Position numbers and translations under genes: made by a program. The notes below the pieces were generated by a model. The model saw nothing but the letters and a program-made list of their open reading frames with translations. It searched no databases and had not been told where the DNA came from. Shown in pieces: positions 14,714 through 34,064 of a DNA stretch of 64,000 nt (positions are counted from its first letter, which is position 1; each line of letters starts with the position of its first letter). This DNA is from Candidatus Methanoperedens sp. (GTDB lineage Archaea; Halobacteriota; Methanosarcinia; Methanosarcinales; Methanoperedenaceae), in the NCBI GenBank assembly GCA_012026795.1, contig VEPM01000015.1:1-64000 (forward strand). Direction: 5' to 3'.

Positions 14714-15271
14714 TTATTTCTTGCTCTCGATATGTTTTTGCACTATCTCTCTTATTTCATCCGGATTCCTGAGCACAGTTATCCCCCTCATTTTCCGCAG
14801 TTTCTCCACGGCATCAAGATCAATATCCCGCATCGTAAGCGTCAATTTCTTGCCTCCGGGCAGGTCTGTGACAATATCCCCCTTAGTCTGGTCAGCCGGG
14901 AAAATATATACAGGCACTTTTGCTTTCATAGCCTGGGCAGCAGCGTTTGAGAGCAGGGTATCCGATATTCCTGCTGCGATTTTTGCCACTGTATTGGAAG
15001 TGGAGGGTGTGATTATGATAAAATCATACTTCCCGAGCTGCAAATCCCCCACAAGGAAGGGGACATTGGGGGATTTTTCAGAATACGTTCTGGGAAAACT
15101 CGTTTTTAAGTCATTAAAGAGCTTGTACCATTTTACGACCATCTCGCCTGCCTGGGAAAGAAACACCCTGACATCAAGGTCATATTCAAGCGTCAGCTCT
15201 TTCATTATATCGAAGCTTTCTTTGAGATAATCGCCGCAGCCTGTTATTCCCCATGCGATTTTTATAGTCAT
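14714..15271 (-). CDS. Archaeoflavoprotein AfpA / DmrB-like
   Basis: A 185-residue flavodoxin-like protein of the archaeal AfpA/DmrB group within the flavoprotein (UbiX-like) superfamily. It begins KIAWGITGCGDYLKES. FMN-binding signatures are TPSTSNTVAKIAAGISDTL and the later PVYIFPADQ segment. Family members carry FMN. AfpA of Archaeoglobus accepts electrons from ferredoxin, and DmrB in Methanosarcina reduces dihydromethanopterin. Which applies here is not decidable by eye. The gene stands alone with a TATA-like 'aaatatttat' upstream. Confidence 0.8.
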   Translation of the reverse strand: MTIKIAWGITGCGDYLKESFDIMKELTLEYDLDVRVFLSQAGEMVVKWYKLFNDLKTSFPRTYSEKSPNVPFLVGDLQLGKYDFIIITPSTSNTVAKIAAGISDTLLSNAAAQAMKAKVPVYIFPADQTKGDIVTDLPGGKKLTLTMRDIDLDAVEKLRKMRGITVLRNPDEIREIVQKHIESKK

Positions 15272-15296
15272 ATAAATAATAAATATTTAAAGAACC

Positions 15297-15322
15297 GCAG
15301 ATGAACGCAGATGAACGCAGAT
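15297..15322. repeat. Short tandem repeat, 10-bp unit
   Basis: gcagatgaac occurs twice and then partly a third time, between the leftward flavoprotein gene and the end of the cyclophilin gene. Function unknown; possibly a dispersed repeat of this genome. Confidence 0.6.
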
Positions 15323-15351
15323 TTGTTCATCAGGCATCTGCGAAATTAAGG

Positions 15352-15780
15352 TTATTGTATTGTGACTTTTATGATCTTGTCGCCTTTTTTGATGCTTTCG
15401 ACCACGTTCTGGCCTTCTGTTACCTGTCCGAACACAGAATGTTTCCCATCAAGGTGGGGTTGTGGTGCTTCTGTGATAAAGAACTGGCTCCCCCCGGTAT
15501 TCGGACCTGCATTAGCCATAGATACAGCACCTTTTGTGTGTTTTAATTTTGGATGAAATTCATCACGTATCATATACCCCGGACCGCCTGTTCCATCTCC
15601 TTTAGGACACCCGCCCTGAATCATAAAACCGCGTATGACCCTGTGGAACGTAAGCCCGTTATAGAACCCTTTTTGGGCAAGATCTATGAAGTTCTTTGTA
15701 GTGATCGGTGCTTCTGATTCCTTAAGTTCGAATTTTATAATTCCCTTCGTGGTCTCTAAGATTGCAGTTCTGTTTGCCAT
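15352..15780 (-). CDS. Peptidyl-prolyl cis-trans isomerase, cyclophilin type
   Basis: A 142-residue single-domain cyclophilin without a signal peptide, hence cytoplasmic. It catalyses cis-trans isomerisation of proline bonds during folding. The core is clear: [25 protein letters not shown] (catalytic R in FHR), then [19 protein letters not shown], then [14 protein letters not shown]. Length is at the short end for the family but complete. It is the last leftward gene before the cytochrome region. Confidence 0.95.
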
Positions 15781-15942
15781 ATTTATCCTTGTAGCTTAGT
15801 GGAGGTCATGGTATAATTGCTTTTTGCCGGGACTGCATATCGGGAAAATTTAAGGTTACCGGAAAGCTGCATAACGTTTTTTCGAAAGATTTAAGTAATA
15901 AAAGAATATTGATAATAATCAATAACTTACGTGAAAAACGGG

Positions 15943-16059
15943 GAAAACGGGATTTAACCAGACAGAGATTATCCGGATTAAGAAAACGGGATTTAACCAG
16001 ACAGGGATTATCCAGATCAGGAAAACGGGGATTGACCAGCAACGGGGAAATCCAAAAAC
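15943..16059 (+). repeat. 39-bp tandem repeat upstream of first giant cytochrome
   Basis: The unit starting gaaaacgggatttaaccaga recurs with exactly 39-bp spacing at 15943, 15982 and 16021; the third copy is diverged. A related single block (gggaaaaacgggattag) lies at 23838-23854 before the second cytochrome gene. Because 39 is a multiple of three the repeat might be coding debris, but no start codon supports that. A regulatory role is possible. Confidence 0.75.
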
Positions 16060-16111
16060 ATGCATGAGCCCATGCAAGACCGATAATAAATTAGTAGAGG
16101 ATAGGATAGGT

Positions 16112-19100
16112 ATGATAGCTAAATCAGTATATAAAATCTCGTATCGAATAAATATAAATAATATATATACAAAATTTTATCTTTATGCATTATTGATATT
16201 CCTTTTATCAATAACCCTTATGCTGGCCATTAATCCATCATCAGCAGCCCCGGCTTCAACCGGGGATAAATGGAAGATAGTTTTTGACCAGGGTACTGAT
16301 CTGCCATATAATTATTCGGCTTCATTCAGGCCAAAGATATGGCTTTATAACCAGGCTGATATCCCTGTATCAAGTGGTGTCACAGTCTCCTACAGTTATG
16401 TTAATGTCAATACAGGAGGCACAATATCAAGCGGAACCGCTACGAGTAATGGGGACGGCTCATATACCGGCGGTACCATCAACATGCCTTCCAACGATAA
16501 GAATTATATAAACATAAAATTTTCCGTTCCTCAGAATTCCAATATAATTTCAGAGCAGCATGTGGTGTTTGCAGGTACGGTAGAAGCATCAAAAGGAGCT
16601 ATCTGGAAGATTGTTCCTTTCAACACTTCATCTGGTCCTTCATGGGACCGCAACCAGAAGCAGAATATATACATTATCCTGTACTCGGATGCCCGGACGC
16701 CCATAAAAAACCAGCAGGAACAGCCAACCATAACTATAAAAAATTCAGCCGGTACAGTAGTCAATAGCAGTTCCATGACATACCTGGATAACGGTATATA
16801 TAATTATACCCTGCCTGCCAGTTCAATAACTTCAGACGGAGAATACTATTTTGAAATAACCAGCAGATGGTCATCCAGGAAAGTAACAGGCGGAAAGTCA
16901 AGATACACAACCGCGATAGCAGGATTCAATATCGAAGCTGTGGGAAACCAGGGGGATGAATCACCTCCAGATTTACTTAACTGGAAACAGACCCCTAATT
17001 TCCCAACCCCGATCGATAATGTAACATTAAGCGCAGAGGTTTTTGATAATGTGAATGTCTCTTCAGTTACAACTTATTACAGTGTAAATAACGGTACTAT
17101 ACAAACAATACCGGTGGAAAATGGTATGTTTACTTACCGGGGCATAATCAGCAGATATTTGATGGAAGACCATATCAGATATTGGATCTCGGCAAGCGAC
17201 GGGATTAATATGAAGAACAGCTCAATAAATGATTATGTAGTGACTGAACCTGCAGGAAGCCCGAATACCTCATTTTCATACATGAACCATCCTGTTTACT
17301 ACTTTGGTTATTCGAGAGCAGGAACTGCAAACGATGCAGGCGGGGACACCGGTTATGATGGGACATGGACGAGCGGTGAAAAAGATGGCGTTTATTATAT
17401 GCAGGCAAATCCCCAGGTATATACATTTTTCAGGGACATGACCACGATCAAAATAAAAACAATGATCCTTGACTCAAAGGGTAAGCCTGTCCGGGGTCTT
17501 AAGAATGTGAAAGCATGGCTCCAGGAGAATAAAACCCAGCCATCCGGCGCGAGAAATGCGAATAAGACCATGACAGAAGTTGAAGGTGAGGATGGAATAT
17601 ACATTGCTGCATGGGAAGGGTCCCCTGCAATGAGTGGCACATCGGTAACATGGAATGATGATGCAAAAGTCATCTGGGGAAAATACGACAGCGGACAAAT
17701 ATACAGTGCGTATGTGGACTTTAATAATGATAGTGTGGCGGATGAGAATATCACCTGGCTTGCATATACTTTCATGGATACATTCGTAGGTTCTTCCCAG
17801 GATGGAAAAGGTCTGCATGGCAGCAATATCGAAGCTTCAAACAATTGCGGCAGGGCATGCCATCAGGGCATGGTGGGCTCAACAAGCAGGGTGGATGCAG
17901 AACCCACCTGTCCGGACTGTCATGGTGTTGAAAAGACAGCAAATGGAGGTTCATGGCCAATTTCCGGGAATACTGATGCTACCGACAGGATACTATACGG
18001 CAATAGCTCATCTCACTCACGATTAAATACATCAGGGAATTCCACTTATTGCGGTGACGAATCATGCCATAATTCTCTATGGGGAGCAACTCCGGTCAAC
18101 CCTGCGCCAATACCAGGATACAATCCAGGCGATCCTCTTGAAAATATGTTCAACAACTCAGGCTATCCGGTGCCTGCGCAATGCGGTGAATGTCATACAT
18201 ACAAAAACGGCACAATACCTTCAGTTGACGGGCATAATGCGATGATAAATTGTAAGTTCTGCCATGGTTCATATCACAGGCAGCACAGGATAACGGATTA
18301 CATTACTTCTCCTGTAAAGGATGATGTAATAAGGGGAACTCCCGGCTATGTTGGAACAGGAGGAGAGAATGGAAGCGGGAACTATGCAGGAAACTGCTAT
18401 AAGGACTGCCATAAGACACAGGTCGAGCATTCGCTCGTGGGAAGACAGGGAAATCCGGTAAATGAGATAGTACCATGTGATGAATGCCATAAGAATTTTG
18501 ATAAAGCATCCATGCATCTTGATGATGTTGGACCTTATGATGATAGGGATACCTGCGGGGGATGCCACCAGGTGAATGAAACAATAACGCATAACGTATC
18601 TTATTCGATGAATCCGCCAGTAGTCACAGATCCGGTACGACATTCTGAGAACATTATCGGGAATAAATGGAACAGGACAGGGACGCGTCCCTTCTGGTCT
18701 GAATATGAGAACTCGTGCAGGTTCTGCCACGGCAGGTCATACAATGATGCATACGGTCTTGGCAGGAATCTGGATCATATGGGTACAAACAGTATAAACG
18801 GTACCATCAATTCCACAAGTTATTGGTGTGCGTCATGTCATGTTGATACATACAGGAGTGGGAATACTACATTTGATGACATGGTCAAAACTTATAATGA
18901 CTCCTTTGGAGTAGTTCCTCCTGAGATCACAGGAAATGCCACCTGGAAGTCAGATCGAAATGGTTATATTGACCATCAAGCGCGGGAGTTTACTGACAGG
19001 AACAATTCAAGCACATTTTCAGATGATATATGTTATGAATGCCATGGCCGCCTTGCAAATAGTACATCTATGACAGTTTTCATGCATAATGTCGATCTTG

Positions 19101-22100
19101 GCCAGGCCAGGGGAGCCGGGCCGGACTGCATAAGCTGTCATGATACTGGCAAAACAGAATCAGGATATCACATAAATAATACTGCAATGAGCACAGGTGT
19201 CCATGCCAATCTCAATACGAACGCCACAAATACATCGTGGGTGCCTGCAGCCAACAAGAAATGCTGGGGATGCCATGATTCAAACGGGACCCAGCCTTCT
19301 AATACCAGTAAGGGAAGCAGGTTCGATAACCCATACAAATGCTATGAATGCCATAATTCAACGAACAAGCCCTACGCCAGTGTAAGTAATGCGCCGAACG
19401 TGAGTGAACATTTTAAGGGCGGTACCAGTATAAGGGCAGCAACAGCGGCGACTGACAATTCATCATCCTGCATAGTATGCCATAATATTACAGAGATGAA
19501 GGTGACGTATTCTGAGGACGATATATATAATTCCAATTATTCATTCCCATCCCATTATGGTAAGAAAAGAACTGATCTTCGGATATGGGATTCGGGAAAA
19601 TCAGCAAACTGTAGCTACTGCCACCAGAACTCAAGCACAGCCTTTTCAGGAGCAATGGTAAATGAAGCACACACATCCATCCAGAACCACACAAATGCCA
19701 GCTCACCGACCTGTTATAACTCAACCTGCCACAACACAGGATGGATACACAATTCGTCATTGGCAAAGCCAGATATGACATTGCCCAACACCACATTCTG
19801 TCAGAACTGCCATGCAGACAAACAGAAACATAACAATATACAGGACTGCAGCAACTGTCATATCAACACAAGCAGCAGCGATACCATTCATCCTATAAAG
19901 TTCATCCAGACTACTGGCACATATGATACAACAATTACCCAGGCAGCCAACTGTACGGACTGCCACCAGGCGGAATTGCCGGGATTTACAGCAGCCCCGA
20001 TAATCCCGGCTACGTTGAAACACAGCTCAAATATTTCCAATGGTACAATATGGGGGATATTCTGGACATCCGGATCAGATTCATGTTATTATTGCCATAG
20101 TAATACAAAACACAATGCGACCGCACTTGGCAGGATAAACGCTCTCAATAACTCTAACAACATCAGGAATGGTAACCTGAATACTACGGGCTGGTGTGCG
20201 GACTGCCATTACAATGCGTCGTTTAATACCAATTACATAGGCGATCAGTGGAATCCCATCCCGCCGCTCATCACTTTCAATAATGCGGGTAAAAGCGGAT
20301 GGGTAGACCACAGTGACTTCCTGAACAGCGGTTACAATGACAGCAACTGCAGGACCTGCCATGCCCTGAACGGGCCTTACGGGGCTACAACATTGAATTA
20401 TTCGCATAGTTTTGACGCGGGTACGTCAGGAGGTGTGAACTGCACTTCATGCCATAATATTGGCGGTTCGGCAAAGCATGACGTTGATATTGCCAGTATG
20501 AACAACGGCGCCCATGCCAGCCTGAACAATCGCTCGCAGTTTACCGGAGGCAATGCCACAAACAGGAAATGCTGGGCATGTCACGGGACCCTGAACTCAA
20601 ATGGTTTTGCCAATGAAATCGACCAGCCAGCCACATCACACAATACCACAATATACCAGAACCCCAGGGATTGTCCTGATTGTCACAATAACCTTCAATC
20701 AAACTCCAATTTCAGCGCACCACAGGTCGCAGAACACAGAGAGGGCGCTCCTTTCGTACCAACAACAGGAACAGGATGTTCCCTGTGCCACAACAATAGC
20801 CTTACTGTTATCAATGAGAACGATGGCTTCGGGATCACAAATCCCCGGGAGGCCGCAGCATCCCATTACCTGAACGATGCAAACATTAACCTGATGACCG
20901 CCAATAACCATAGCAACGACTGCAGGTGGTGCCATATTCTCAACAATGCTTCACAGGATTGGGGAACACCTTTTGACCCGGCAGGAAGCTCAAAATATGT
21001 CCATACCTCACAAAACGTTGCGCAGAATTCCAATTGTTATCTATGCCACGGAGACTTGTCATTGTCTGTTAAACTACACGACCCAGGGATAACCGGAGGA
21101 AGTGCGGGAGATAATTGTATAGGGTGTCACACTAACGATACTTTACCATACCCTGCAATCGATCTCACATCATTCACAAATCACAGGAACGTAAACCTCA
21201 CGAACGGCACTGGCAACCTGGACAATAACGATTGCACAACATGTCACTATAACAGCACAAACATGACCAGAGTCCTGACAAGATCATGTGAAGACTGCCA
21301 CACAAGCGGTAATTACAATGCAACGGTCATAAGCAACCATAAACAGGGTGGAGCGAACATCACCACAGCAGCATACTGTTCAGGCTGCCATAACAACAGC
21401 GTGAGCCAGTACAAATATAGCCAGAATGCAAGTGTTAGCCACTATGGCACAAGAACCGGCCTGATCCCCACAGCGGACTGCACTAACTGCCACAAGGACC
21501 CAGCAAACGCCAGTCTCTGGGGCAATGCAACAGATCCGGCCCATAGCGGCACATTCCCGCACAGTATCGCAAATACTCCAGGAGAAGACTGCTATGCATG
21601 CCATAATTCTGCTGCCGACTTCCATAACGTCAGTATTTCGAAACCCTCAGTCTCCTCAGTAACATGCCTCGACTGCCATAAGACTACAGCCATCATGGCA
21701 CACAAGAAGATCGATTCTGGCGTGATTGCATCCGGGAGCCACAAAGACAGGGCATGTGAGAACTGCCACGCCAACGCAACAGACAATAACATGGACAGCT
21801 ATTCCTTCACTACCGATCCGGCAAAGACATGTACAGACTGCCACACAGGATCGGGAAACTTCAGTGCACCATTAGTAGCAGAACATAACCAGGAAGCACA
21901 GCAGATTCTGACCCTCGCAGCATGTACCACATGCCATAGCAACGGCGGCATGTATTTCTCCAACACTGGAACCAACGGTACAGGCAGCGCAATAACACAT
22001 TACATAAAAGACGTAACAAATACATCAACAAGTCCGTACCAGCACAATGGCCCGATCAATACCTCGAATTGTATCGACTGCCATAATGGTGCATACACCA

Positions 22101-23635
22101 ATAACTCAAGCTGGGGCTCCCCTGTCAACATCACAACAAGTTCAAAGAGAATACATATCGAAACCCTGACAGACCAGTGCGACCAGTGCCATAAAGACAG
22201 TACAGTCTCAAGCCTGTCCTTGGTGGATTTCCATAATGCAAGCGTTCAAACGATATCCATGGATAATTGTCTCTCCTGCCATGATACTGGCGGTCAGTAT
22301 AATACCAGAGTCGATTCGGCATCCCTTGGCATGCATGGAAATATCAACAACACCGATGGTGGAATTACGAATGCTGATTGCGCGACATGCCATTACGATA
22401 CCACTGATATGGGTTCAAATTATACTGTCCAGGCCGGTGTAAATGTCCGAGTCTGCAATGACTGCCACATGAACCAGAATGTTACCTCACCAATGGTCAG
22501 TGAGCACTATCCCGGTGCTAATATTAATGTAACCACAATGAATTGTGAGAACTGCCACAGCAACAGTTTGAATATTCCCAATCCGAATTCGAGTGTAAAT
22601 ACAGCAATGGGAAATGTTACACATTACGGTACAACAACAGACCTTATAACACCAAGCGCAGGAGCTTACAATACCGCATGCAATAACTGCCACAACAGCG
22701 CTGTGAATAAGACCGGCTATGGTGTGGTGAATAAGCAGGTAACCGTACCTCATACGGGCGCAGGTACATGTAACGAGTGCCATGTAGATGGCAGTGCATC
22801 TGACCTGCATAATAGTTCACTTGGAATGCCGGTAACTGTATCATGCATTGCCTGCCACACAACATATGCATCAAAATATAATTCATCGAACCTTACAGGA
22901 ACGCCCATGGACGATTATTCAACATGTGGTGGTGGAAATTGCCATGGCACCGATATTTCAGGCAGCCTGGATACCCTGGCAAGGCATAATGTTAGCAGGA
23001 CCTTTGCAGGTACAGGAGGTTCTACAAATACGGTGTATCTGAATAATAATATTTTACTTACCATCACAAAAGGAACTCCTGTTGAAATAACATCCATGAT
23101 CAATGATGCAAATGGTGCTGCTTCGCGTGTTGGTGGAGCTGAATATTATCTCGATGTTGATCCTGGCCGGGGTAAAGGAATACCTATGTCAGCAGCAGAC
23201 GGCCTGTATGATGCAACCAGAGGAAACTGGGAGAATGTAATAGCAACACTTGATACAGGCAACCTCTCAGACGGTAACCATACTATATTTGTCAGGGGTG
23301 TTGATATCGGTAAACAGTGGAGCACTCCAAAGAATGCAACGCTAGTTGTCCAGTCCCTGGGATATATCAACGTGACAGTAACAAGCGTAGACGGGCCTGT
23401 AGTAAATGCAGATGTATGGATAGATAGCGAAGATATCAAGAAAACAGATATTAACGGTAGCTATTTATTTGCAGTACCAGCCGGAACATACAATGTTACA
23501 GTTAGCAAACAGCCCACACACAACGACAATACAAGTACGGGTGTGGTTGTTACACAGGGCAACACAACTCCATTACCGGTATATCTCCAGAAAAAACCGA
23601 CAGGAACAATCAGCGGCACAGTTACGGATGCATGA
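16112..23635 (+). CDS. Giant secreted multiheme c-type cytochrome (49 candidate haems)
   Basis: About 2507 residues from the ATG at 16112, preferred over the ATG at 16064 because a GGATAGG lies just before it. An N-terminal signal helix ends SSAAPA. Immunoglobulin-like beta domains fill roughly the first 580 residues. I counted 45 CX2CH motifs, one CX3CH (CYKDCH) and three CX4CH (CGDESCH, CYNSTCH, CGGGNCH), about one per 35 residues. The tail has an Ig-like domain and a carboxypeptidase-regulatory-like domain, then stops at SGTVTDA, the start of what would be another domain. There is no membrane anchor. It most likely conducts electrons at the cell surface. Its 3' 1.1 kb is nearly identical to the next gene. 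Confidence 0.93.
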   Translation: MIAKSVYKISYRININNIYTKFYLYALLIFLLSITLMLAINPSSAAPASTGDKWKIVFDQGTDLPYNYSASFRPKIWLYNQADIPVSSGVTVSYSYVNVNTGGTISSGTATSNGDGSYTGGTINMPSNDKNYINIKFSVPQNSNIISEQHVVFAGTVEASKGAIWKIVPFNTSSGPSWDRNQKQNIYIILYSDARTPIKNQQEQPTITIKNSAGTVVNSSSMTYLDNGIYNYTLPASSITSDGEYYFEITSRWSSRKVTGGKSRYTTAIAGFNIEAVGNQGDESPPDLLNWKQTPNFPTPIDNVTLSAEVFDNVNVSSVTTYYSVNNGTIQTIPVENGMFTYRGIISRYLMEDHIRYWISASDGINMKNSSINDYVVTEPAGSPNTSFSYMNHPVYYFGYSRAGTANDAGGDTGYDGTWTSGEKDGVYYMQANPQVYTFFRDMTTIKIKTMILDSKGKPVRGLKNVKAWLQENKTQPSGARNANKTMTEVEGEDGIYIAAWEGSPAMSGTSVTWNDDAKVIWGKYDSGQIYSAYVDFNNDSVADENITWLAYTFMDTFVGSSQDGKGLHGSNIEASNNCGRACHQGMVGSTSRVDAEPTCPDCHGVEKTANGGSWPISGNTDATDRILYGNSSSHSRLNTSGNSTYCGDESCHNSLWGATPVNPAPIPGYNPGDPLENMFNNSGYPVPAQCGECHTYKNGTIPSVDGHNAMINCKFCHGSYHRQHRITDYITSPVKDDVIRGTPGYVGTGGENGSGNYAGNCYKDCHKTQVEHSLVGRQGNPVNEIVPCDECHKNFDKASMHLDDVGPYDDRDTCGGCHQVNETITHNVSYSMNPPVVTDPVRHSENIIGNKWNRTGTRPFWSEYENSCRFCHGRSYNDAYGLGRNLDHMGTNSINGTINSTSYWCASCHVDTYRSGNTTFDDMVKTYNDSFGVVPPEITGNATWKSDRNGYIDHQAREFTDRNNSSTFSDDICYECHGRLANSTSMTVFMHNVDLGQARGAGPDCISCHDTGKTESGYHINNTAMSTGVHANLNTNATNTSWVPAANKKCWGCHDSNGTQPSNTSKGSRFDNPYKCYECHNSTNKPYASVSNAPNVSEHFKGGTSIRAATAATDNSSSCIVCHNITEMKVTYSEDDIYNSNYSFPSHYGKKRTDLRIWDSGKSANCSYCHQNSSTAFSGAMVNEAHTSIQNHTNASSPTCYNSTCHNTGWIHNSSLAKPDMTLPNTTFCQNCHADKQKHNNIQDCSNCHINTSSSDTIHPIKFIQTTGTYDTTITQAANCTDCHQAELPGFTAAPIIPATLKHSSNISNGTIWGIFWTSGSDSCYYCHSNTKHNATALGRINALNNSNNIRNGNLNTTGWCADCHYNASFNTNYIGDQWNPIPPLITFNNAGKSGWVDHSDFLNSGYNDSNCRTCHALNGPYGATTLNYSHSFDAGTSGGVNCTSCHNIGGSAKHDVDIASMNNGAHASLNNRSQFTGGNATNRKCWACHGTLNSNGFANEIDQPATSHNTTIYQNPRDCPDCHNNLQSNSNFSAPQVAEHREGAPFVPTTGTGCSLCHNNSLTVINENDGFGITNPREAAASHYLNDANINLMTANNHSNDCRWCHILNNASQDWGTPFDPAGSSKYVHTSQNVAQNSNCYLCHGDLSLSVKLHDPGITGGSAGDNCIGCHTNDTLPYPAIDLTSFTNHRNVNLTNGTGNLDNNDCTTCHYNSTNMTRVLTRSCEDCHTSGNYNATVISNHKQGGANITTAAYCSGCHNNSVSQYKYSQNASVSHYGTRTGLIPTADCTNCHKDPANASLWGNATDPAHSGTFPHSIANTPGEDCYACHNSAADFHNVSISKPSVSSVTCLDCHKTTAIMAHKKIDSGVIASGSHKDRACENCHANATDNNMDSYSFTTDPAKTCTDCHTGSGNFSAPLVAEHNQEAQQILTLAACTTCHSNGGMYFSNTGTNGTGSAITHYIKDVTNTSTSPYQHNGPINTSNCIDCHNGAYTNNSSWGSPVNITTSSKRIHIETLTDQCDQCHKDSTVSSLSLVDFHNASVQTISMDNCLSCHDTGGQYNTRVDSASLGMHGNINNTDGGITNADCATCHYDTTDMGSNYTVQAGVNVRVCNDCHMNQNVTSPMVSEHYPGANINVTTMNCENCHSNSLNIPNPNSSVNTAMGNVTHYGTTTDLITPSAGAYNTACNNCHNSAVNKTGYGVVNKQVTVPHTGAGTCNECHVDGSASDLHNSSLGMPVTVSCIACHTTYASKYNSSNLTGTPMDDYSTCGGGNCHGTDISGSLDTLARHNVSRTFAGTGGSTNTVYLNNNILLTITKGTPVEITSMINDANGAASRVGGAEYYLDVDPGRGKGIPMSAADGLYDATRGNWENVIATLDTGNLSDGNHTIFVRGVDIGKQWSTPKNATLVVQSLGYINVTVTSVDGPVVNADVWIDSEDIKKTDINGSYLFAVPAGTYNVTVSKQPTHNDNTSTGVVVTQGNTTPLPVYLQKKPTGTISGTVTDA

Positions 23636-23655
23636 GAAAAATCCAAAATCAACAT

Positions 23656-23675
23656 TGTAGCCTATATAGGCTACA
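23656..23675. terminator. Perfect 20-bp palindrome after first cytochrome
   Basis: tgtagcctatataggctaca is a perfect inverted repeat 20 bases past the stop codon. As RNA it folds to a hairpin and may end or protect the transcript. A partly matching, decayed version lies after the second cytochrome near 33124-33148. A protein-binding site is the alternative. Confidence 0.5.
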
Positions 23676-23756
23676 GATAAATATCAGGAATCGTTCATCA
23701 TAATGCTCATTTCATGGAAACGTAGCCTGTAAAACCCGGAATCTCAAGTAAATAAG

Positions 23757-23772
23757 AACCTTTCGAAAGGTT
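23757..23772. promoter_or_regulatory. Palindrome upstream of second cytochrome
   Basis: aacctttcgaaaggtt is a perfect 16-bp palindrome 154 bases before the second cytochrome start. The same centre (ttcgaaag) occurs at 15881-15888 upstream of the first cytochrome. In both cases an AT-rich stretch and then an aaaacgggatt block follow. A shared regulator is plausible. The interval 23639-23925 contains no gene. Confidence 0.45.
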
Positions 23773-23925
23773 TATGGTAGAAAAAACTATTGGTATTAAT
23801 AATAAAAATAGTAAAACGTAGATAAAAACGAAAGAAGGGAAAAACGGGATTAGTTGAGCGGATATCCAATATATTTGCATTAGCTTATATGTTCTAAATT
23901 ATAGGATAGCAAGGAGAATAGAATA

Positions 23926-26900
23926 ATGGCATCATCAAATGGTTTCAGTCTGGAAATTAGTATTAATAAAGAATATAAAACTGTTTTTCAGCCCGTTAAA
24001 TCATGTATTATTTTGATTTCAGTTTTAATTATATTGCTTATGAGCAGCGTGGCAAGCGCAGCAGTATACAGGTGGGTTCCAGGAAGCGGGGTAGAGATCG
24101 CAACTGGTATCACTACGGACTGGGGTCCATGCGGAACAAACCCTCTTACCAATAGGACAACATTACTTACAGATAACCCGGCTTCAGGCTGCGGCAGTAA
24201 CAGCATAACGTCTGATATAGCAGATCCCATTGGAGAAACATATCCCCTGGTAGAAATGTTCTTCAATACAGCATATTCCCGGGATACTAATGTTACGGGT
24301 GACTGGTATTTTGGAAGAATACACCACGCTGGAATAACCCCCACAACATATACATTCTATCTGATATATGCACTTCCCGATGGCACTAAAATCACCCTGC
24401 CGGGAACCGGAAGCTTGACTATAAGCAGTTCCTCCGATCAAAATTATAATGTCTCTTTAGCACAGATAAACGGAGTAGTCCCAAAAGATGCCAAGCTTGG
24501 CTTGAAAATCACAAAATCAGTGCAATGGGCAAGATATCTCTGGTTTGGGGATATGGCAGCCAACGGGGGTGTCGCATCGGGATATTTTTCTGTCACCGAA
24601 ACACTTCCGGGTGAACAAAAATACTCTTTATCAGGTTATATAACCAGCGGCGGTGCTCCTATTGAGGGCGTATCAGTCCGGGCCAATACCGGCCAGTCTG
24701 ATACTACGGACTCCCAGGGATATTATCTTTTAACAGAATTACCTAATGGCTCATATGTAATCGACGCCAGCCTCCCTGGTTACGTTCCCACCTCTACGAA
24801 TGCCACAATAAACGGGGCAAATAGGATCAATGTTAATATATCACTGTCACAAGAACCCAAATATCTCTTATCAGGATATGTAAAAGACCAGTCCACAGGG
24901 GATGCAATAGCTGATGCATTGGTCACAACAGATACGGATATGTTCACCAACACAAGCGTGACAGGTTACTACAGCTTCCTTCTGAATAACGGCACTTACT
25001 TGATAACAGCCAGTAAGTCAGGTTATTACGATGCCTTTGTTGAGAGAACAGTAAATGGGGTGCCAGGGAATAATTCTAATATTTCGATCACTTCACGTCT
25101 CCCTGTAGTTTCTAAAATTTTAGTAGCCACGAACCGCTATGTAATACTGGATGACCCGATAGATAATTCAAAAACAGCGCAAACTTCAGCAAATTTTTCA
25201 CTCCCGCCCAATACCGGCTGGAGTACATCCAATAATCAGTGGAGCGGAACACAAACACAGATCAAAGGTTTTGCATTATTGGTAGATACAAAAGGAAACC
25301 CTGTTAATAATACAAACGTTACTTTTACTTTATCGAACTGGAATAACGCAACTTCCGAAACCTCACCTGTGATCACGACAGATGCAAACGGAATAGCAAA
25401 TTATACATTCGATATGAACGCCCGGAACTATTATGGTAATTGGAACATTATTGTCAATGCATCCGGGAAATCAGAATCCTCCGGCTTTATTTATAACTGG
25501 TGGGGATGTAACTCCGGAACCGGCTGTAACCAGAATCATGGAACGGATTCGCCCGGAACCGGAAGCTCTTCGATACAGAACTCGCCTTACACACTGGGAC
25601 GGGAAACTATTACATATAATTCAAACCATAGGACTATTTCTAACATTCAAAGCAATAATAATTGTGTGGGATGTCACAGGTCATACGGTGGTACAGGCGG
25701 GGGAACCTCATTTACAGGACAGCCCACAAAGACCTCTGATGTTCATACAACAGATACATGTTCTTCATGTCATAGTTTAATTTCAACTCATAATAGCAAT
25801 TCACAGATCAAATCATGCACTGATTGCCATACAAGGACAGACCTTTCGAAAAAGGGCACAATGGCAGGTTCACCTCTCAGGAGCAATTACTCTGTGGCAT
25901 CATCAGGACACAATCCCAATTCTACAATCCCTTGTATAATATGCCACGGTCCTATGCATAATATTTCAAAACCCGATAAGACCCAGAAGTTAATAAGGAA
26001 CAATGATACGGAATCAAGCCAGTGTATCATATGCCATGCAAGTTATACCACACATAATGCCAGCAATTCAGGAGGTTTGAATTGCACGTTATGCCACAGC
26101 GACGATATTCATGCAATCCAGGTACTGGGGCAGGATGGTTCATATGTAACATATAACAAAGCCAATCCGAATAATGCCAGCGGGAACTGCACTAATTGCC
26201 ACCAGAACACAACATATTTCAATACCCTGAAATCGCAACCAAAAGCAGGTAACTATTCAGGAAGAAACCCATCCTTCATAAGGAACCCGCAGCTTCACAG
26301 CGACGCTCTTGATGCCGGCATAAGATACGGCAACTACTGGTGGATGCAGAACCAGGATGCTTCATGCAGATACTGTCACGGCAAGACAATGCACGATTCT
26401 GTTGCTATCGGGACACCATCTCTTTTTAAAGGCAATAACATAATCAATTCCACGATCGCAGATACAACATGGTGCGCTTCCTGCCATTATCCGGGCTATG
26501 TGGAATATTCGAACATGACCGCTGCATTCATTAAGAGTGGTGCGAACGTGCCCCCATCAATAATAAAAGGTTCGAACTATTATGTCAAAGGACGTGACCA
26601 TTCCGTAGATCCCGGCTTTAATGACAGCAACTGCTATACATGTCATAATGGGAGTACACCTTATACAAAAATAACGCCATTTATGCACGAAGTATATATC
26701 GGCGGTGGAGGGCCGGATTGTCTTTCCTGCCATGAGATCGGAAGTGCAGGATCAGTACTGCATGTAAATAATTCAGCAATGAAACTTTCATTCCATTCAA
26801 ACCTGAACAATAACTCTGTTAATCTATATGGTGTTTCTGCGGAAAACAAGAAGTGCTGGGGATGCCACCAGACAGACGGCATCCAGCCTGGTAATACCAG

Positions 26901-29900
26901 TATGGGTGACAGGTTCAGTTCACCATATACCTGCTATGACTGTCATAAGAACGACGGTAAACCATATCCGAATGTCGAAAATGCAGGAAGCGTGACCAAT
27001 CATATCGATGTTGATTCTATTATCACCCGGATATATACTCATAATGCAACATGCACAACCTGCCATAACAATAGCGTGAACCTGAACGATGCAAAGATCA
27101 CAGATCCAAGAATTGTTTCCGAAAAAGAAAGTGTATCTCATTATGGTTCAAAACAATCGCTTGTGGAATCAATAGGGGATTCGAGCACGCAGGGATGCAC
27201 ATATTGCCATTATAATACGACGAACAGGGCTAAATGGGGTAATGCGCATGATCCAAGATTGAATCCGGTGAAGCCGCATACTGCGACCAAGAACGACCAG
27301 TGTTATATCTGTCATATCCAGGGTGAACTGCCTGCTGATTTCCACAGTGAATCAATGTATTATGCCGGAAATGGCAAAATAGTCCTGGCAACTAACAGGT
27401 ATGTGATACTTGATGATCCTAATCCGGGAAAAGCAGAAACAACTGCCGGATTTTCCACTCCACGTAATAATTGGAACTCCAACTACTGGTCAGGCAAGAA
27501 CACAAGGATTAATGCAACAGCGTTATTTATTGACAGGCACGGAATCCCGCAGTCAGGATCAATAATAAGTTTTACAATATACTGGCCAAATGGGACAGCA
27601 CTGGCAACGATCAATAGTTCCACAAACCCAAATGGACTGGCTAATTTCAGCTATGATATGAATAACAGGAATTATTATGGGAACTGGAAGATAGAAGCTT
27701 CCAGCGGAAGTGTGAAAGCCAATATTACCTTTATGTATAATTGGTGGGGCTGCTCTGTATGTCATGGGTCTGAAAATCCCGGGAGCGGAACTCCTTCTTT
27801 AGCAAATTCACCTTATCTATCCGGAAGGGACGTGATTACCAATAGGGAGTTTGATCACCGTGATTCCAGTGTAAAATGCACGTATTGCCACTCTTCATAT
27901 GATGGCGTACCCGGTGGCGCGGCCTTTACTACCCGGAAAAATAATCCTTCGGATGTTCACAGGAATCTCTCCTGCAATAATGCAAACTGTCACGGTAGTT
28001 TCTCACAGCATGGTACCAACCAGCGGATCAATTCATGTTATAATGCAGCATGCCATAACAGGACAGATATAACAAGAAAAGGCACACTTAATGGAGTAAA
28101 TCTTGATACGGCCCTTAGCATTTATTCTTATGACAATGCTTCATCATTTAATTCCACATTCCATACCCCCAATTCTACTGTTCCATGTATGATTTGTCAT
28201 GGTCCGATGCACAGTATTACAAAAGCCGATCCTGCACAGCGGTTTATTAAGAATAATGATACGGAATATAACAACTGTATTGCCTGCCACCAGGATCAGG
28301 TAAGGCATAATAACAGTGTGAACTGTCCTGTATGCCATAGTGATGATGTACATGCTATCAAGGTTTTAGCACAAAATGCGACTTATGTGACATTGGATCA
28401 TAATAATCCGAATCCGGCAAGAGGTAACTGCACAAACTGTCACCAGAATTCAAGCTTCTTTAATATTTTAATGTCCCAACCGACTGCGGGAAACTATACC
28501 GGAAGGCAATCACCTGTTATCAGGACACCAGTGGAACATAGTGAAGATACCAGGGCGGGAAATATATGGACAGATGAGGGTTACTGGATTCATAATGACC
28601 AGGTTTCCTGGTGTGCATACTGCCATAATAATGAAATGCATGCCATAAGCACTCTTGGAAAAATCAAGATGTTCAATGGAGATAATATAGTAAATTCAAC
28701 TATTGGCAATACCACATGGTGCGCTTCATGTCACTGGCAGGGTTATTCGAATGATTCGACTAAATATATCGACATGGTGGATACATTCACTGGTTATTTA
28801 CTCCCTGTACCTCCCGAAATTACAGGGCATGCGTTATATGCGCCAACAGGCAAACCGGGGTATTTCAATCATACTCTCTCCACATACTCCGACCAGGACT
28901 GCAAGTCCTGTCACAGCACACTTGGTCCGGGTGCAAAAATAACCGAGTTTACACATAATGTTCGTAAGGGCCAGAGCGGAGGTCGGAACTGTACCTCATG
29001 CCATTATGAAGGCAGTCCGACAGCGCCAAATGTAGATATAGTCAACATGGGACTCGGCGCCCATGCCAGCCTGAATAATTTTTCTCAATATACAGGCGGC
29101 AACATCACGAACAGGAAGTGCTGGGCATGTCATGGGACATTGAATGCAAATGGTTTTGCCAATGAAAGTGATCAGCCTGTCGACTCGCATAATATATCCA
29201 TATACAAGAATCCCAGGGGGTGCCCCGGCTGCCATAATAACAACCAGATAAATTCTAATCTAAGAGCGCCCCAGGTCGCAGAACACAGGGAGAGATCTCC
29301 GGTAATCCCGACAAATGGTACAGGATGTTCATTATGCCACAATAACAGTCTTACTACTATTAATGAGAACGACGGGTTTGGCATATCAGGAGGCAATGCA
29401 CAAAACGCAACAGCTTCCCATTATCTGAAAGACGCCAATATTAACCTTATGACTGCCACCAATCACAGTAATGATTGCAGGTGGTGTCATATCCTGAACA
29501 ATGGATCTACGAACTGGGGAACACCGTTTAACCCGAAGAACAGCACAAAATACACTCACTCTGATGAAAATGTAGCGCAGAATTCAAATTGTTATGCCTG
29601 CCATGGCAGCCTGTCATCATCGGTCAGGCTTCATGATTCCGGGATCACAGGTGGTGCTCAGGGTGCACCGAACTGTCTCTCATGTCACTATGCCGGCAGT
29701 CAGTATCCCAACATCGATATTAACGCAGCCGGTATCAGTGTTCATTCCGGGATGAATAGCTATAATGCAACTTCAAAGGGGTATGCTCCTATCGTTGGGG
29801 CATGCTGGGCATGCCACGATAGCGATGGCAATGTCACCAGCGGACATCCTGATAAAAAGGACACACCCAAAGTTTGTGATGATTGCCACGTACAGGGAGG

Positions 29901-32900
29901 AGCATATTATTCACAATCTGCTGGCTGGGGCGGCCTGACTGTAAATGAGCATTTCAGGGGCGGCACGGATATAAAAGCCGGAAATGCAAGCTCCAATATC
30001 GCTTCATGTATAAACTGTCATGAAAATGTAAGTGAGATGATCCTAAACAACGATGACCCTGATACCGGATCATTCGCAGGCGATGGAATGCGCCTCAACG
30101 GGGGTAACAGAAGTTATTACCATTATGGCCGGCCCAGGACTGATTTGCGAGGTGTGGATATTTATTTAAATCCGATTGCAAATTGTATATATTGTCACAG
30201 GAATGATACTACAGCATTTGAAGGAGCAATGCTGGATCCGGATCAAAATAAATATGTTAATGAACATTCGGATGAACCTAATAATCCTTCCTGTTCTTCT
30301 GATAGCTGTCACTCGAAGGGCTGGATCCATAACAGTACCATGACAAAACCGGTTATTAATAATAATGCGTACTGTGGCGAAGGTTGCCACTCAACTAAAA
30401 CGTCACACAACAGGACTGACTTCTACTGCTGGTATTGTCACCAGGACCCCAGTAATCCGAATAAGACAAATCAAAAGGCTCCTCATGGAATGATGTATCC
30501 GAAGACAGATGGAAGTTTCTTAATGTATAATAGGTCTGCATCAAATGCGAATTGTACAACATGCCATATTGATGACCTGGTAAATACAACTTTAAAACCT
30601 GTAAAAATACCCTCCCTGAGCCATTCAACAGATCCGGATTCCGGGAAAAAATGGGGCAACTACTGGGATAATACTTCTAAGTTAACCGCCTGCCAGTATT
30701 GCCACCAGAGTTCACTTCATTCGTATCAAGATTCTTTAATAGGCAACATTTCGTCAATAAAAGGAACAAATACTTATAAGAATCCTGACTTTGCAAATTC
30801 CACATGGTGTGCTAATTGCCACTATGCAGGAGAACCGGAATATAAAGGCAACTTACTAAATCCGGTTCCGCCTGAAATAACAAATTCAAGCCTGGTTGGG
30901 AGTGATGGAACAGTCTTCTATAATCATTCTGGCTTTAGCAATTATAATGATAGCAAATGCAGAGTGTGCCATGCTTTGTCAGGTTCTTATCTTGCAACAT
31001 CTATGAACTACTCTCATAATCTCGGTGAAGGCTCAATGGGAGGAGTAAATTGCACTTCCTGTCATAATACAGGCGGTATAGCTGGTCGGAAGATTGATGC
31101 AGTTAGTATGGATAGCAGCTATCATGCAAACCTGAACAACCGTTCACAGTACACCGGAGGTAATATGTCAAACAGGAAATGCTGGGCATGTCATGGTACT
31201 TTGAATGCAGACGGCTATGCCAATGAGAGCGATCAGCCTGCTGGAGAACACAACAATACGATGTTTAAGAATCCAAGAAAATGTCCGGACTGCCATGATA
31301 ATACCCAATCAAGTTCAAATTTCGGCGCGCTGCAGGTGGTCGAGCATCAATCATCATCTCCTGATGTTATAACTGCTGGTGTAAAGTGCTCAATATGCCA
31401 TAACAATAGCCTGGCATCAATGAATGAGCCAGATGGATTCGGTATAAATGGAGGGGATCCGCAAAATGCAAGCGTTAGCCATTATGGCACGAAGACAGCT
31501 TTAATATCAACACAGAATTGCATATTATGTCATAACGGACAATATACAGGTAACTTTAGCTGGGGAACCCCTGTCAATATTAGCACAAGTCCAAAGATGC
31601 CACATATCCAGAATCAGACAAGCGAGTGTGACCTGTGTCATAATGACGGAACAGTATCCAGCCTGGCCCTTGTTGACTTCCATAACTCAAGTATCAAAGA
31701 AGGAAGTGCAGATAGCTGTATTGCATGTCACGATGTTAGCAGTACGTCATCAGCAAAAACAAGAATAGACTCAGCAGCCATTGGTATGCACAGGAATCTG
31801 AACAGGACAGACGGAAACAACAACCTGACAAACAGTGATTGTGAGACATGCCATTACAACACGGATAACATGAATGCAACTTACAAAGTTCTGCCGGGAG
31901 TTAATGTTCTTCTTTGCAATGAATGCCACCTGGGTCAGAACTCATCAAGGAAAGTGAACGAGCACTATCCCGGTGCTAATATTAATGTAACCACAATGAA
32001 TTGTGAGAACTGCCACAGCAACAGTTTGAATATTCCGGATTCGAATTCAACAGTTAATACAACAATGGGAAATGTTACACATTACGGTACAACAGCGAAC
32101 CTTGTAACACCAAGCGCAGGAGTTTACAATACCGCATGCAATAACTGCCACAACAGCGCTGCGAATAAGAGCAGCTATGGTGTGGTGAATAAGCAGGTAA
32201 CCGTATCCCATACGGGCGCAGGTACATGTGAAAAGTGCCACATAGATGGCAGCGCATCTGACCTGCATAATAGTTCGCTTGCTATGCCGGTAACTGTATC
32301 ATGTAAATCATGCCACACAACATATGCGTCAAAATATAATGCATCGAACCTTACAAATACGGCTATGGGCGGTTCCGGTTATACAACATGCGGTGGTGGA
32401 AGTTGCCACGGCACCGATATTTCAGGCAGCCTGGATACCCTGGCAAGGCATAATGTTGACAGGACATATCCGGGTACAGGAGGTTCTACCAATACAGTCT
32501 ATCTGAATAACAATGTTTCACTTAGCGTCACAAAAGGAACTCCTGTTGAAATAACATCCATGATCAACGATGCAAATGGTGCTGCTTCACGTGTTGGTGG
32601 AGCTGAGTATTATATCGATACAGATCCTGGCCAGGGCAAAGGAATTCCTATGACGGCAGCGGACGGCCTTTATGATGCAAGGCAAGGAAGCTGGGAGAGT
32701 GTAATAGCAACACTTGATACAGGCAGCCTCCCGGACGGGAATCACACAATATATGTCCGCGGCGTGGATATCGGTAAACAGTGGAGCACTCCAAAGAATG
32801 CAACGTTAGTTGTCCAGTCCCTTGGATATATCAACGTGACAGTAACAAGCGTAGACGGGCCTGTAGTAAATGCAGACGTCTGGATAGATAGCGCAGATAT

Positions 32901-33099
32901 CAAGAAAACGGATATTAACGGTAGCTATTTATTTGCAGTACCAGCCGGAACATACAGTGTTACAGTTAGCAAACAGCCCACGCATAACGACAATACAAGC
33001 ACGGGTGTGGTTGTTACCCAGGGCAATACAACTTCAGTACAGGTATATCTCCAGAAGAAACCAACAGGAATAATTAGCGGTACAATTACGAATGTATAA
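23926..33099 (+). CDS. Giant secreted multiheme c-type cytochrome (59 candidate haems)
   Basis: A 3057-residue protein with AGGAGA eight bases before the ATG and a signal peptide ending VASA. Order: a ~190-residue N-terminal domain; two carboxypeptidase-regulatory-like repeats (about 228-385); an Ig-like domain starting ILVATNRYVILDDP (about 397-540); a first haem block with 16 CX2CH; a second copy of the same Ig-like domain (about 1150-1272); and a second haem block to about 2823. In total I count 54 CX2CH, four CX4CH and one CX3CH. The tail matches the upstream paralogue and ends at SGTITNV. Probable extracellular electron conduit. Length and haem count are exceptional. Confidence 0.93.
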   Translation: MASSNGFSLEISINKEYKTVFQPVKSCIILISVLIILLMSSVASAAVYRWVPGSGVEIATGITTDWGPCGTNPLTNRTTLLTDNPASGCGSNSITSDIADPIGETYPLVEMFFNTAYSRDTNVTGDWYFGRIHHAGITPTTYTFYLIYALPDGTKITLPGTGSLTISSSSDQNYNVSLAQINGVVPKDAKLGLKITKSVQWARYLWFGDMAANGGVASGYFSVTETLPGEQKYSLSGYITSGGAPIEGVSVRANTGQSDTTDSQGYYLLTELPNGSYVIDASLPGYVPTSTNATINGANRINVNISLSQEPKYLLSGYVKDQSTGDAIADALVTTDTDMFTNTSVTGYYSFLLNNGTYLITASKSGYYDAFVERTVNGVPGNNSNISITSRLPVVSKILVATNRYVILDDPIDNSKTAQTSANFSLPPNTGWSTSNNQWSGTQTQIKGFALLVDTKGNPVNNTNVTFTLSNWNNATSETSPVITTDANGIANYTFDMNARNYYGNWNIIVNASGKSESSGFIYNWWGCNSGTGCNQNHGTDSPGTGSSSIQNSPYTLGRETITYNSNHRTISNIQSNNNCVGCHRSYGGTGGGTSFTGQPTKTSDVHTTDTCSSCHSLISTHNSNSQIKSCTDCHTRTDLSKKGTMAGSPLRSNYSVASSGHNPNSTIPCIICHGPMHNISKPDKTQKLIRNNDTESSQCIICHASYTTHNASNSGGLNCTLCHSDDIHAIQVLGQDGSYVTYNKANPNNASGNCTNCHQNTTYFNTLKSQPKAGNYSGRNPSFIRNPQLHSDALDAGIRYGNYWWMQNQDASCRYCHGKTMHDSVAIGTPSLFKGNNIINSTIADTTWCASCHYPGYVEYSNMTAAFIKSGANVPPSIIKGSNYYVKGRDHSVDPGFNDSNCYTCHNGSTPYTKITPFMHEVYIGGGGPDCLSCHEIGSAGSVLHVNNSAMKLSFHSNLNNNSVNLYGVSAENKKCWGCHQTDGIQPGNTSMGDRFSSPYTCYDCHKNDGKPYPNVENAGSVTNHIDVDSIITRIYTHNATCTTCHNNSVNLNDAKITDPRIVSEKESVSHYGSKQSLVESIGDSSTQGCTYCHYNTTNRAKWGNAHDPRLNPVKPHTATKNDQCYICHIQGELPADFHSESMYYAGNGKIVLATNRYVILDDPNPGKAETTAGFSTPRNNWNSNYWSGKNTRINATALFIDRHGIPQSGSIISFTIYWPNGTALATINSSTNPNGLANFSYDMNNRNYYGNWKIEASSGSVKANITFMYNWWGCSVCHGSENPGSGTPSLANSPYLSGRDVITNREFDHRDSSVKCTYCHSSYDGVPGGAAFTTRKNNPSDVHRNLSCNNANCHGSFSQHGTNQRINSCYNAACHNRTDITRKGTLNGVNLDTALSIYSYDNASSFNSTFHTPNSTVPCMICHGPMHSITKADPAQRFIKNNDTEYNNCIACHQDQVRHNNSVNCPVCHSDDVHAIKVLAQNATYVTLDHNNPNPARGNCTNCHQNSSFFNILMSQPTAGNYTGRQSPVIRTPVEHSEDTRAGNIWTDEGYWIHNDQVSWCAYCHNNEMHAISTLGKIKMFNGDNIVNSTIGNTTWCASCHWQGYSNDSTKYIDMVDTFTGYLLPVPPEITGHALYAPTGKPGYFNHTLSTYSDQDCKSCHSTLGPGAKITEFTHNVRKGQSGGRNCTSCHYEGSPTAPNVDIVNMGLGAHASLNNFSQYTGGNITNRKCWACHGTLNANGFANESDQPVDSHNISIYKNPRGCPGCHNNNQINSNLRAPQVAEHRERSPVIPTNGTGCSLCHNNSLTTINENDGFGISGGNAQNATASHYLKDANINLMTATNHSNDCRWCHILNNGSTNWGTPFNPKNSTKYTHSDENVAQNSNCYACHGSLSSSVRLHDSGITGGAQGAPNCLSCHYAGSQYPNIDINAAGISVHSGMNSYNATSKGYAPIVGACWACHDSDGNVTSGHPDKKDTPKVCDDCHVQGGAYYSQSAGWGGLTVNEHFRGGTDIKAGNASSNIASCINCHENVSEMILNNDDPDTGSFAGDGMRLNGGNRSYYHYGRPRTDLRGVDIYLNPIANCIYCHRNDTTAFEGAMLDPDQNKYVNEHSDEPNNPSCSSDSCHSKGWIHNSTMTKPVINNNAYCGEGCHSTKTSHNRTDFYCWYCHQDPSNPNKTNQKAPHGMMYPKTDGSFLMYNRSASNANCTTCHIDDLVNTTLKPVKIPSLSHSTDPDSGKKWGNYWDNTSKLTACQYCHQSSLHSYQDSLIGNISSIKGTNTYKNPDFANSTWCANCHYAGEPEYKGNLLNPVPPEITNSSLVGSDGTVFYNHSGFSNYNDSKCRVCHALSGSYLATSMNYSHNLGEGSMGGVNCTSCHNTGGIAGRKIDAVSMDSSYHANLNNRSQYTGGNMSNRKCWACHGTLNADGYANESDQPAGEHNNTMFKNPRKCPDCHDNTQSSSNFGALQVVEHQSSSPDVITAGVKCSICHNNSLASMNEPDGFGINGGDPQNASVSHYGTKTALISTQNCILCHNGQYTGNFSWGTPVNISTSPKMPHIQNQTSECDLCHNDGTVSSLALVDFHNSSIKEGSADSCIACHDVSSTSSAKTRIDSAAIGMHRNLNRTDGNNNLTNSDCETCHYNTDNMNATYKVLPGVNVLLCNECHLGQNSSRKVNEHYPGANINVTTMNCENCHSNSLNIPDSNSTVNTTMGNVTHYGTTANLVTPSAGVYNTACNNCHNSAANKSSYGVVNKQVTVSHTGAGTCEKCHIDGSASDLHNSSLAMPVTVSCKSCHTTYASKYNASNLTNTAMGGSGYTTCGGGSCHGTDISGSLDTLARHNVDRTYPGTGGSTNTVYLNNNVSLSVTKGTPVEITSMINDANGAASRVGGAEYYIDTDPGQGKGIPMTAADGLYDARQGSWESVIATLDTGSLPDGNHTIYVRGVDIGKQWSTPKNATLVVQSLGYINVTVTSVDGPVVNADVWIDSADIKKTDINGSYLFAVPAGTYSVTVSKQPTHNDNTSTGVVVTQGNTTSVQVYLQKKPTGIISGTITNV

Positions 33100-33217
33100 A
33101 TACAAAGAAAACCTGAACATTGTGTATTATATGCTATAGATTATACATTATTGAGTTTATGTAGAAAAGTATATATATTATAAAAGAGGTTTTTTAGTAT
33201 AGATAAGGGATATAGGA

Positions 33218-33538
33218 ATGGACTCACTAAAGGTACGAATAAAAAGAAGGCTTGAAGTGTATCTTGAGCTTGATATTGATGGTATCAGGAAATTCATAAT
33301 CGATATCCTGTTACGATTAAAAAGACTTACTGTTGACCAATTGTTTAAAGAGTTGAATAAGAAATTCAAGATCTCATTCAGCGCTGTTGCTTCAACATTG
33401 GGCTATATTCACTCAAAACTGGGGATACTGCACGCGTACAAGGAATCATATAAAACGCCAATAGTATATTCTTTAAAGGAAGAGTATGTGGATATTGTAG
33501 AGAATGTATTGAACAAAAGTGCAGCTAAACCATCATAG
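33218..33538 (+). CDS. DUF2551 family protein
   Basis: A 106-residue protein matching the archaeal DUF2551 pattern, known mainly from Methanosarcinales-type archaea. The central part (KRLTVDQLFKELNKKFKISFSAVASTLGYIHSKLGIL) looks like a winged helix, so a DNA-binding role is likely but unproven. A GGGATATAGG lies before the ATG and a strong TATA (agtatatatattataaaa) about 40 bases upstream. Its 3' end overlaps the convergent HD-domain gene by 14 bases. Confidence 0.75.
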   Translation: MDSLKVRIKRRLEVYLELDIDGIRKFIIDILLRLKRLTVDQLFKELNKKFKISFSAVASTLGYIHSKLGILHAYKESYKTPIVYSLKEEYVDIVENVLNKSAAKPS

Positions 33539-34064
33539 CTGATATTTCATTGTTTAATACGATAAAACGATCGATAACTCTTTCTTCCAGCTTTTTTTTC
33601 CTTAAATTCAGGATAAGTTCGTCAATTGTCCCGATCTCTTTGCCGAAAATAAGGTTGTCTGCGTGAGCAACGATTTTCTCTTCAATAGTCACAGGCATAT
33701 AATCCTTTTCAGGAAGTCCAAGACCTTTTGCTTCTTCTCTGGGAATCCCTGCGCCGATATGCCGTTCAATGATCTTTACTAATTTTTCATCAAGATCGTT
33801 CTCAAGTGCAATTTTAGCACCTGCTACAGCATGACCTATGCCATGCGTCTTTGACCGTCCAATATCATGAAGCAAAGCCCCCGTGAAAACAGCGTCAATG
33901 TCGATCTGTACCGGTTGCTTCTCGTGAATTGATTTGTGTGCGGCATTTTCCCGGATATTCAGGGCAATTTTTTTTGCGTAATCCGCTACAGCCTTGCAAT
34001 GTTCGATAACATCAGCAGAGCATCCTGATCTTATCAATAAATCAATCGCATCTTTTTCATTCAA
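33525..34064 (-). CDS. HD-domain hydrolase (TIGR00295 type)
   Basis: A 179-residue protein of the archaeal HDIG-related family. Metal-binding residues are H22 (EHCKAVADYA), the HD pair in GALLHDIGRSKTH, and the later ERHIGAG and AHADNL. The fold hydrolyses phosphate esters, commonly of nucleotides; the substrate of this archaeal group is unknown. It starts in the last four bases of the transcription factor E gene (ATGA overlap) and ends the leftward trm56 operon. Confidence 0.85.
   Translation of the reverse strand: MNEKDAIDLLIRSGCSADVIEHCKAVADYAKKIALNIRENAAHKSIHEKQPVQIDIDAVFTGALLHDIGRSKTHGIGHAVAGAKIALENDLDEKLVKIIERHIGAGIPREEAKGLGLPEKDYMPVTIEEKIVAHADNLIFGKEIGTIDELILNLRKKKLEERVIDRFIVLNNEISAMMV

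Follow-up and report, generated by a model that had tools for sequence, protein, structure and literature searches.

Two giant multihaem cytochromes encoded in tandem in Candidatus Methanoperedens, probable carriers of electrons to extracellular acceptors

In Methanoperedens archaea, electrons from the oxidation of methane are passed on to metals, electrodes or partners. The stretch of 64,000 nucleotides analysed here (the 64-kb window) corresponds to contig C15 (VEPM01000015.1, positions 1 to 64,000) of a Candidatus Methanoperedens sp. assembly, GCA_012026795.1, which is archaeal and comprises 3.59 Mb in 68 contigs. Two very large open reading frames (ORFs) rich in haem motifs lie in tandem in the window, and none of its other ORFs is motif-rich. 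The question raised by this locus is what such proteins do, and where they stand among known cytochromes. They are very probably two paralogous, secreted, modular c-type cytochromes that carry electrons beyond the cytoplasmic membrane to extracellular acceptors, which would be metal oxides, partner cells or other surface cytochromes. Judged by sequence, they belong to a known class, the large multihaem cytochromes (MHCs) of Methanoperedenaceae: they display many CXXCH motifs together with cytochrome c domains, a signal-like segment, and homology to a protein that we infer to be a published 113-haem MHC. A preliminary description of this DNA had placed them with the extracellular electron transfer cytochromes of ANME-2d (a group of anaerobic methanotrophic, ANME, archaea); the motifs, the signal-like segments, the lack of an anchor and the homology to the 113-haem protein support this as the most likely reading. 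Cytochrome-mediated extracellular electron transfer has been shown for Ca. M. nitroreducens (PMC10542353).

Protein 1 (P0001) and protein 2 (P0002) are both encoded by ORFs that are open from start to stop. A scan for CX2-4CH found 49 motifs in protein 1 (44 CX2CH, two CX3CH and three CX4CH) and 59 in protein 2 (54, one and four), with a mean spacing of 35.3 and 38.7 residues, respectively. Both totals had been given in the preliminary description, and its division by type stands for protein 2; that for protein 1 (45, one and three) does not. Shuffled sequences contain a mean of 0.42 motifs for protein 1 (maximum 3) and 0.64 for protein 2 (maximum 5). All CH dipeptides of the two proteins lie inside motifs, and the cysteines outside motifs number only 1 and 5. 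The signal peptides and the absence of a membrane anchor, both claimed earlier, are in agreement with hydropathy, the sole measure by which signal segments were judged: a single hydrophobic segment is found near each N terminus (aa 38 and aa 27), and neither protein has a second one.

Within the haem zones there are 52 non-motif histidines for 49 haems in protein 1 and 66 for 59 in protein 2. Over 34 repeat units of 12-14 motifs each, drawn from seven genomes, 12 non-motif histidines are 84-100% conserved. This fits one distal histidine per haem, and hence bis-histidine electron-transfer haems; about one extra conserved histidine per haem points to relay haems with no open catalytic site. Pfam domains detected in the giants are Cytochrome_C7, MtrC/MtrF II-IV, Cytochrom_c3, Cytochrom_c3_2 and Cytochrom_CIII. 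The NCBIfam OmcA/MtrC and DmsE decahaem models match piecewise and below their cut-offs (TIGR03507, 91.6 bits vs a cut-off of 209.3). A profile of the repeat unit matches MtrF (1.8e-11) and decahaem structures of the OmcA/MtrC family in the PDB, and a phmmer search of the PDB with the whole of protein 2 found nothing. The haem modules thus resemble the MtrC/MtrF/OmcA decahaem cytochromes in Pfam and profile matches, but the giants are archaeal, have far more haems and differ in overall architecture.

Structure models were made by AlphaFold without haem. For residues 1868-3057 of protein 2 the pLDDT (predicted local distance difference test) is 40.7, with the haem region at about 30, and the usable part is the C-terminal domain only. 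One haem unit, modelled with the 34-repeat alignment, reaches a pLDDT of 57.8; 13 of the 14 motifs of the repeat-unit model are on or beside predicted helices, and a PDB fold search with this low-confidence model gave no match. As proposed here, each giant would consist of an N-terminal immunoglobulin-like (Ig-like) part, a long series of haem modules, MtrC/OmcA-like and c7-like, with about 8-14 bis-histidine haems apiece, and at the C terminus a transthyretin-like domain followed by a conserved tail. Haem would be attached at the motifs, the proteins would be located outside the cell, and electrons would be relayed along each haem zone. A haem-free N-terminal part of about 580-600 residues is common to both. 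The first in-frame ATG of protein 1 is at 16064, and 16112 is an internal ATG (alternative start). Features of the two genes are as follows; the cassette identities refer to giants on contig C7 of the same genome.

16064..23635, + strand: protein 1, predicted secreted multihaem cytochrome of 2523 aa with 49 motifs (ORF and motif scan; Pfam Cytochrome_C7 1.4e-49, MtrC/F II-IV 3.8e-41)
16064..16246, + strand: signal-like N-terminal segment of protein 1 (hydropathy; hydrophobic stretch at about aa 38-56, predicted boundary)
16247..17845, + strand: haem-free N-terminal region of protein 1 (motif map; weak Ig-like matches, FlgD_ig/MG2)
17846..22942, + strand: haem zone of protein 1, 49 motifs, residues 599-2293 (motif map)
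19772..21262, + strand: 12-14-haem repeat unit of protein 1, the query of alignment A3
22277..23639, + strand (22066 onward vs protein 2): C-terminal cassette of protein 1 (DNA identity 88-89% to two C7 giants, 82% to protein 2)
23591..23632, + strand: C-terminal tail of protein 1, KKPTGTISGTVTDA
23926..33099, + strand: protein 2, predicted secreted multihaem cytochrome of 3057 aa with 59 motifs (ORF and motif scan; Pfam Cytochrome_C7 4.5e-59, MtrC/F II-IV 1.3e-57)
23926..24063, + strand: signal-like N-terminal segment of protein 2 (hydropathy peak at aa 27, predicted boundary)
24064..25659, + strand: haem-free N-terminal region of protein 2 with CarboxypepD_reg and MG2 (Ig-like) domains (Pfam)
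25660..27312, + strand: first haem zone of protein 2, haems 1-16 (spacing as in the N-terminal zone of the 113-haem protein)
27313..27747, + strand: haem-free Ig-like spacer between haems 16 and 17 (150-residue gap; second MG2 stretch)
27748..32406, + strand: second haem zone of protein 2, haems 17-59 (motif map); the two zones together span residues 583-2827
31709..33099, + strand: C-terminal cassette of protein 2 (DNA identity 90-92% to two C7 giants)
32485..33054, + strand: C-terminal beta region of protein 2 with a transthyretin-like (CarboxypepD_reg) domain (modelled, pLDDT about 80-94)
33055..33096, + strand: C-terminal tail of protein 2, KKPTGIISGTITNV, unstructured in the model

The closest long relative is a protein of 5615 aa (L075:2745-19589) that displays 113 CX2CH and seven CX4CH motifs and an S-layer domain. 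Ca. M. manganireducens has MHC/S-layer proteins with 113, 52 and 19 haems, and expression of the 113-haem one is reported to be high when methane oxidation depends on Mn(IV) (Leu et al. 2020, PMC7082337); the 5615-aa protein is presumed to be this 113-haem MHC since it has exactly 113 CX2CH motifs and an S-layer domain. If its CX4CH sites bind haem, the published count would rise to 120. Residues 397-1924 of protein 2 are 51% identical to its residues 401-1957 over 1,596 columns, both have 12-14-haem units, and alignment of haem spacings pairs haems 3-27 of protein 2 with haems 3-26 of the relative (score 56, shuffled maximum 19). It differs from the giants described here in having an S-layer domain and a hydrophobic C terminus; the giants are half as large, lack both and end in the transthyretin-like domain and tail. 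Proteins 1 and 2 have in common a run of about 19 haems (spacing score 31 vs 16 for shuffled strings).

Contig C7 carries three further giants in one cluster, at 1-8804, 13682-22444 and 25285-33831 (L011-L013), with 54, 58 and 64 motifs; the contig ends inside the gene for the 54-motif one, whose full size may be greater. In an alignment of 2,261 columns, protein 1 shows 40% identity with the 54-motif protein, and the cassettes of proteins 1 and 2 resemble those of the 58- and 64-motif proteins. The repeat units, on the other hand, differ in number and kind: spacing strings resolve into tandem units of 12 haems per about 448 residues in the 113-haem protein and the 54-motif C7 protein, and of eight haems per 255 residues, five times, in the 64-motif protein.

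The size of the pair had been thought to stand out. With the C7 giants, and ORFs of relatives that have 59-120 motifs (including 59, 65, 74, 77 and 83), it does not. MHCs with more than 50 haems were found in seven of 16 Methanoperedenaceae metagenome-assembled genomes, one with 113 (Leu et al. 2020, PMC7327174), so that counts of 49 and 59 are mid-range for the family. The giants are also comparable to ANME MHC types A, B and C, very large cytochromes with 20-86 haems (Chadwick et al. 2022, PMC9012536). Nor is the pairing exceptional, as tandem arrays are present in contigs of BLZ2 and LFW-24. These arrays consist of cytochromes that bear the C-terminal tail, with 38 (cut), 19 and 15 motifs in BLZ2 (L061) and 12 (cut), 19 and 15 in LFW-24 (L059). 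An electrode-induced cytochrome pair with 37 and 15 haems has been reported (PMC10874420). No relatives of the giants were found on viral contigs by the patterns tried.

The C-terminal cassette consists of the last haems, an Ig-like part, the transthyretin-like domain and a tail of about 14 residues. Over the final 1.3-1.4 kb, both genes are 88-92% identical in DNA to the two C7 giants, and at this end they match one another at 82% over 1.59 kb; in the rest of the two genes no match exceeds about 77%. The cassette looks like the product of gene conversion or module exchange. The model of the transthyretin-like domain has a TM-score (by target) of 0.84-0.87 to the human carboxypeptidase D domain. 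A frameshifted continuation beyond the abrupt C termini was considered and rejected. The ends are taken as real because no frame carries on into the downstream DNA and proteins of other species stop in the same way.

The tail, (K)PTGxI[S/T]GxV, was searched for over the loci examined with a DNA pattern for PTGxI[S/T]Gx[V/I/M]. Fifty distinct occurrences were found (L082-L131), and in 48 of the 49 coding ones the protein stops 10-15 residues beyond the proline. Of the two non-terminal matches, one (L093) is a chance, out-of-frame match and the other (L119) is internal to a protein that itself also ends in the tail. The bodies that carry it include multihaem cytochromes and subtilases, as well as NosD-like beta-helices, a PD40 propeller and a metallophosphatase with a PKD domain. 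Nearly all complete tail-bearing ORFs have an N-terminal hydrophobic segment and lack a C-terminal helix. True occurrences are present in 12 of 34 Methanoperedenaceae genomes. In the rest of the class, about 176 genomes, L149, from another family of the same order, is the only true tail among ten non-family loci inspected out of a larger set of class matches. When 84,980 named genomes were scanned, 12 loci were confirmed, all from Methanoperedens(aceae) or LFW-series archaea. Neither NCBIfam nor Pfam gave a model of the tail, and a limited search of papers found no description. PGF-CTERM/archaeosortase features are not evident, as neither giant has a C-terminal hydrophobic segment and their tail reads PTGxISGxV.

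It is tentatively suggested, at somewhat less than an even chance, that the transthyretin-like domain with the terminal PTGxI[S/T]GxV strand represents a Methanoperedens surface-sorting or assembly signal, undescribed in the libraries searched. In sequence the tail is similar to GYINGTV, the first strand of the preceding domain. Being free and like a spare first strand, it could bind to a partner through strand addition, and by our guess it would attach or assemble the protein at the cell surface. If so, the two giants would be exchangeable conductive parts with a common plug, and the shared tail would offer a sequence handle for predicting proteins exported to the same place. The same resemblance to GYINGTV can be taken to mean that the tail is the mere edge of the CarboxypepD_reg domain, or a tandem-repeat relic, and has no function. 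This is a possible though doubtful explanation, given the stop-terminal position of nearly all coding occurrences on unrelated bodies in 12 genomes, and given that the tail is conserved better than most of the preceding domain. Two more tail-bearing ORFs were seen on contig C24 of the same genome: an open frame of 5323 aa at 35597-51568, with 38 haem motifs, and after it one of 1270 aa with 29.

Two observations weigh against a role of the giants as carriers of electrons to the outside. The haem loading of protein 2 is uneven, with a 150-residue haem-free break after haem 16, and neither a quinol:cytochrome oxidoreductase gene nor a further cytochrome gene was found among the neighbours of the pair. 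The continuous haem wire put forward in the preliminary description, on condition of a fold like that of known stacks, is a possibility at most, and the break counts against it in protein 2. The break, together with the lack of a membrane anchor or S-layer domain that would link the giants to the membrane, would suit proteins that act as electron reservoirs (capacitors) of the extracellular matrix, long-range transport being left to others such as OmcZ-like filaments, a candidate long-range wire in the genus (PMC10874420). However, the regular spacing, the repeated modules and the conserved extra histidine per haem suit ordered relay chains equally, and a reservoir is considered unlikely. With respect to the OmcZ-type nanowire cluster, the present locus differs: no subtilase, OzpA-like or other, is among the neighbours, and the adjoining cyclophilin lacks a signal-like start and also flanks the empty site described next.

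The pair of genes occupies an insertion whose limits are given by homology of the flanks.

15352..15780, - strand: cyclophilin-type prolyl isomerase, left flank of the insertion (adjoins DUF2551 in relatives)
15827..33114, no strand: 17.3-kb insertion, holding exactly the two giant genes (homology of the flanks up to 15826-15832 and again from 33115)
33218..33538, + strand: DUF2551 gene, right flank of the insertion

In three genomes of the same genus (G024, G004 and G030; empty sites L069, L070 and L071) no more than about 150-210 bp separates the cyclophilin gene from that for DUF2551. Over 1.44 kb of flanking DNA, G024 and G004 are 94.6% identical, the window genome stands at 92.4-92.8% and G030 at 88.8-90.5%; the flanks thus group G024 with G004, the window genome next and G030 outside. 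As this places the window genome inside G030, an insertion in the window lineage is more parsimonious than two losses, on these 1.44 kb only. No target duplication is evident at the insertion ends. The giant genes have third-position GC contents (GC3) of 0.45 and 0.40, close to the 0.45-0.46 of their neighbours, and do not point to a recent acquisition from a distant source. The empty site implies that giant genes of this type come and go between closely related species.

The empty site also bears on the assembly. A draft of 68 contigs in which the C-terminal cassette is repeated at 82-92% could in principle produce collapsed repeats or a chimeric joining of two fragments. The two frames are long and intact, though, their modules are ordered, the repeats are non-identical, the window has no N bases, and the flanks are unique on both sides and match the empty site of relatives; an artefact is very improbable. 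Least credible of all is that the giants form an S-layer conduit of the ANME MHC type A/B kind: the genus is the same and the 113-haem relative bears an S-layer domain, but both defining features are missing from both giants, which have no Pfam match to the S-layer domain (PF07752) and no C-terminal transmembrane helix, and where haem-bearing frames of this genome do match the S-layer domain, they are on other contigs, C27, C45, C47 and C1. These matches also speak against the genome being HGW-1, which is said to lack a fusion of this kind (PMC7327174). Recoding at an in-frame TGA was considered for the S-layer cytochromes; the one inspected, on C47, proved to be a match that overruns the gene end towards the next gene.

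At its start the window carries the last part of an archaeal 23S rRNA gene and a 5S rRNA gene. Housekeeping genes flank the giants, with an aspS-like synthetase, SMC and the cyclophilin on one side and DUF2551, HD, TFE and Trm56 on the other. At 41836-43640 a CbiX-like chelatase adjoins a Mur-ligase-like protein, a pair that we take to be possibly CfbA/CfbE of coenzyme F430 synthesis. A 408-aa protein encoded at 36277-37503 (- strand) has a signal-like start and repeated T.DGGY motifs, with no Pfam or PHROGs match; it is probably a beta-propeller.

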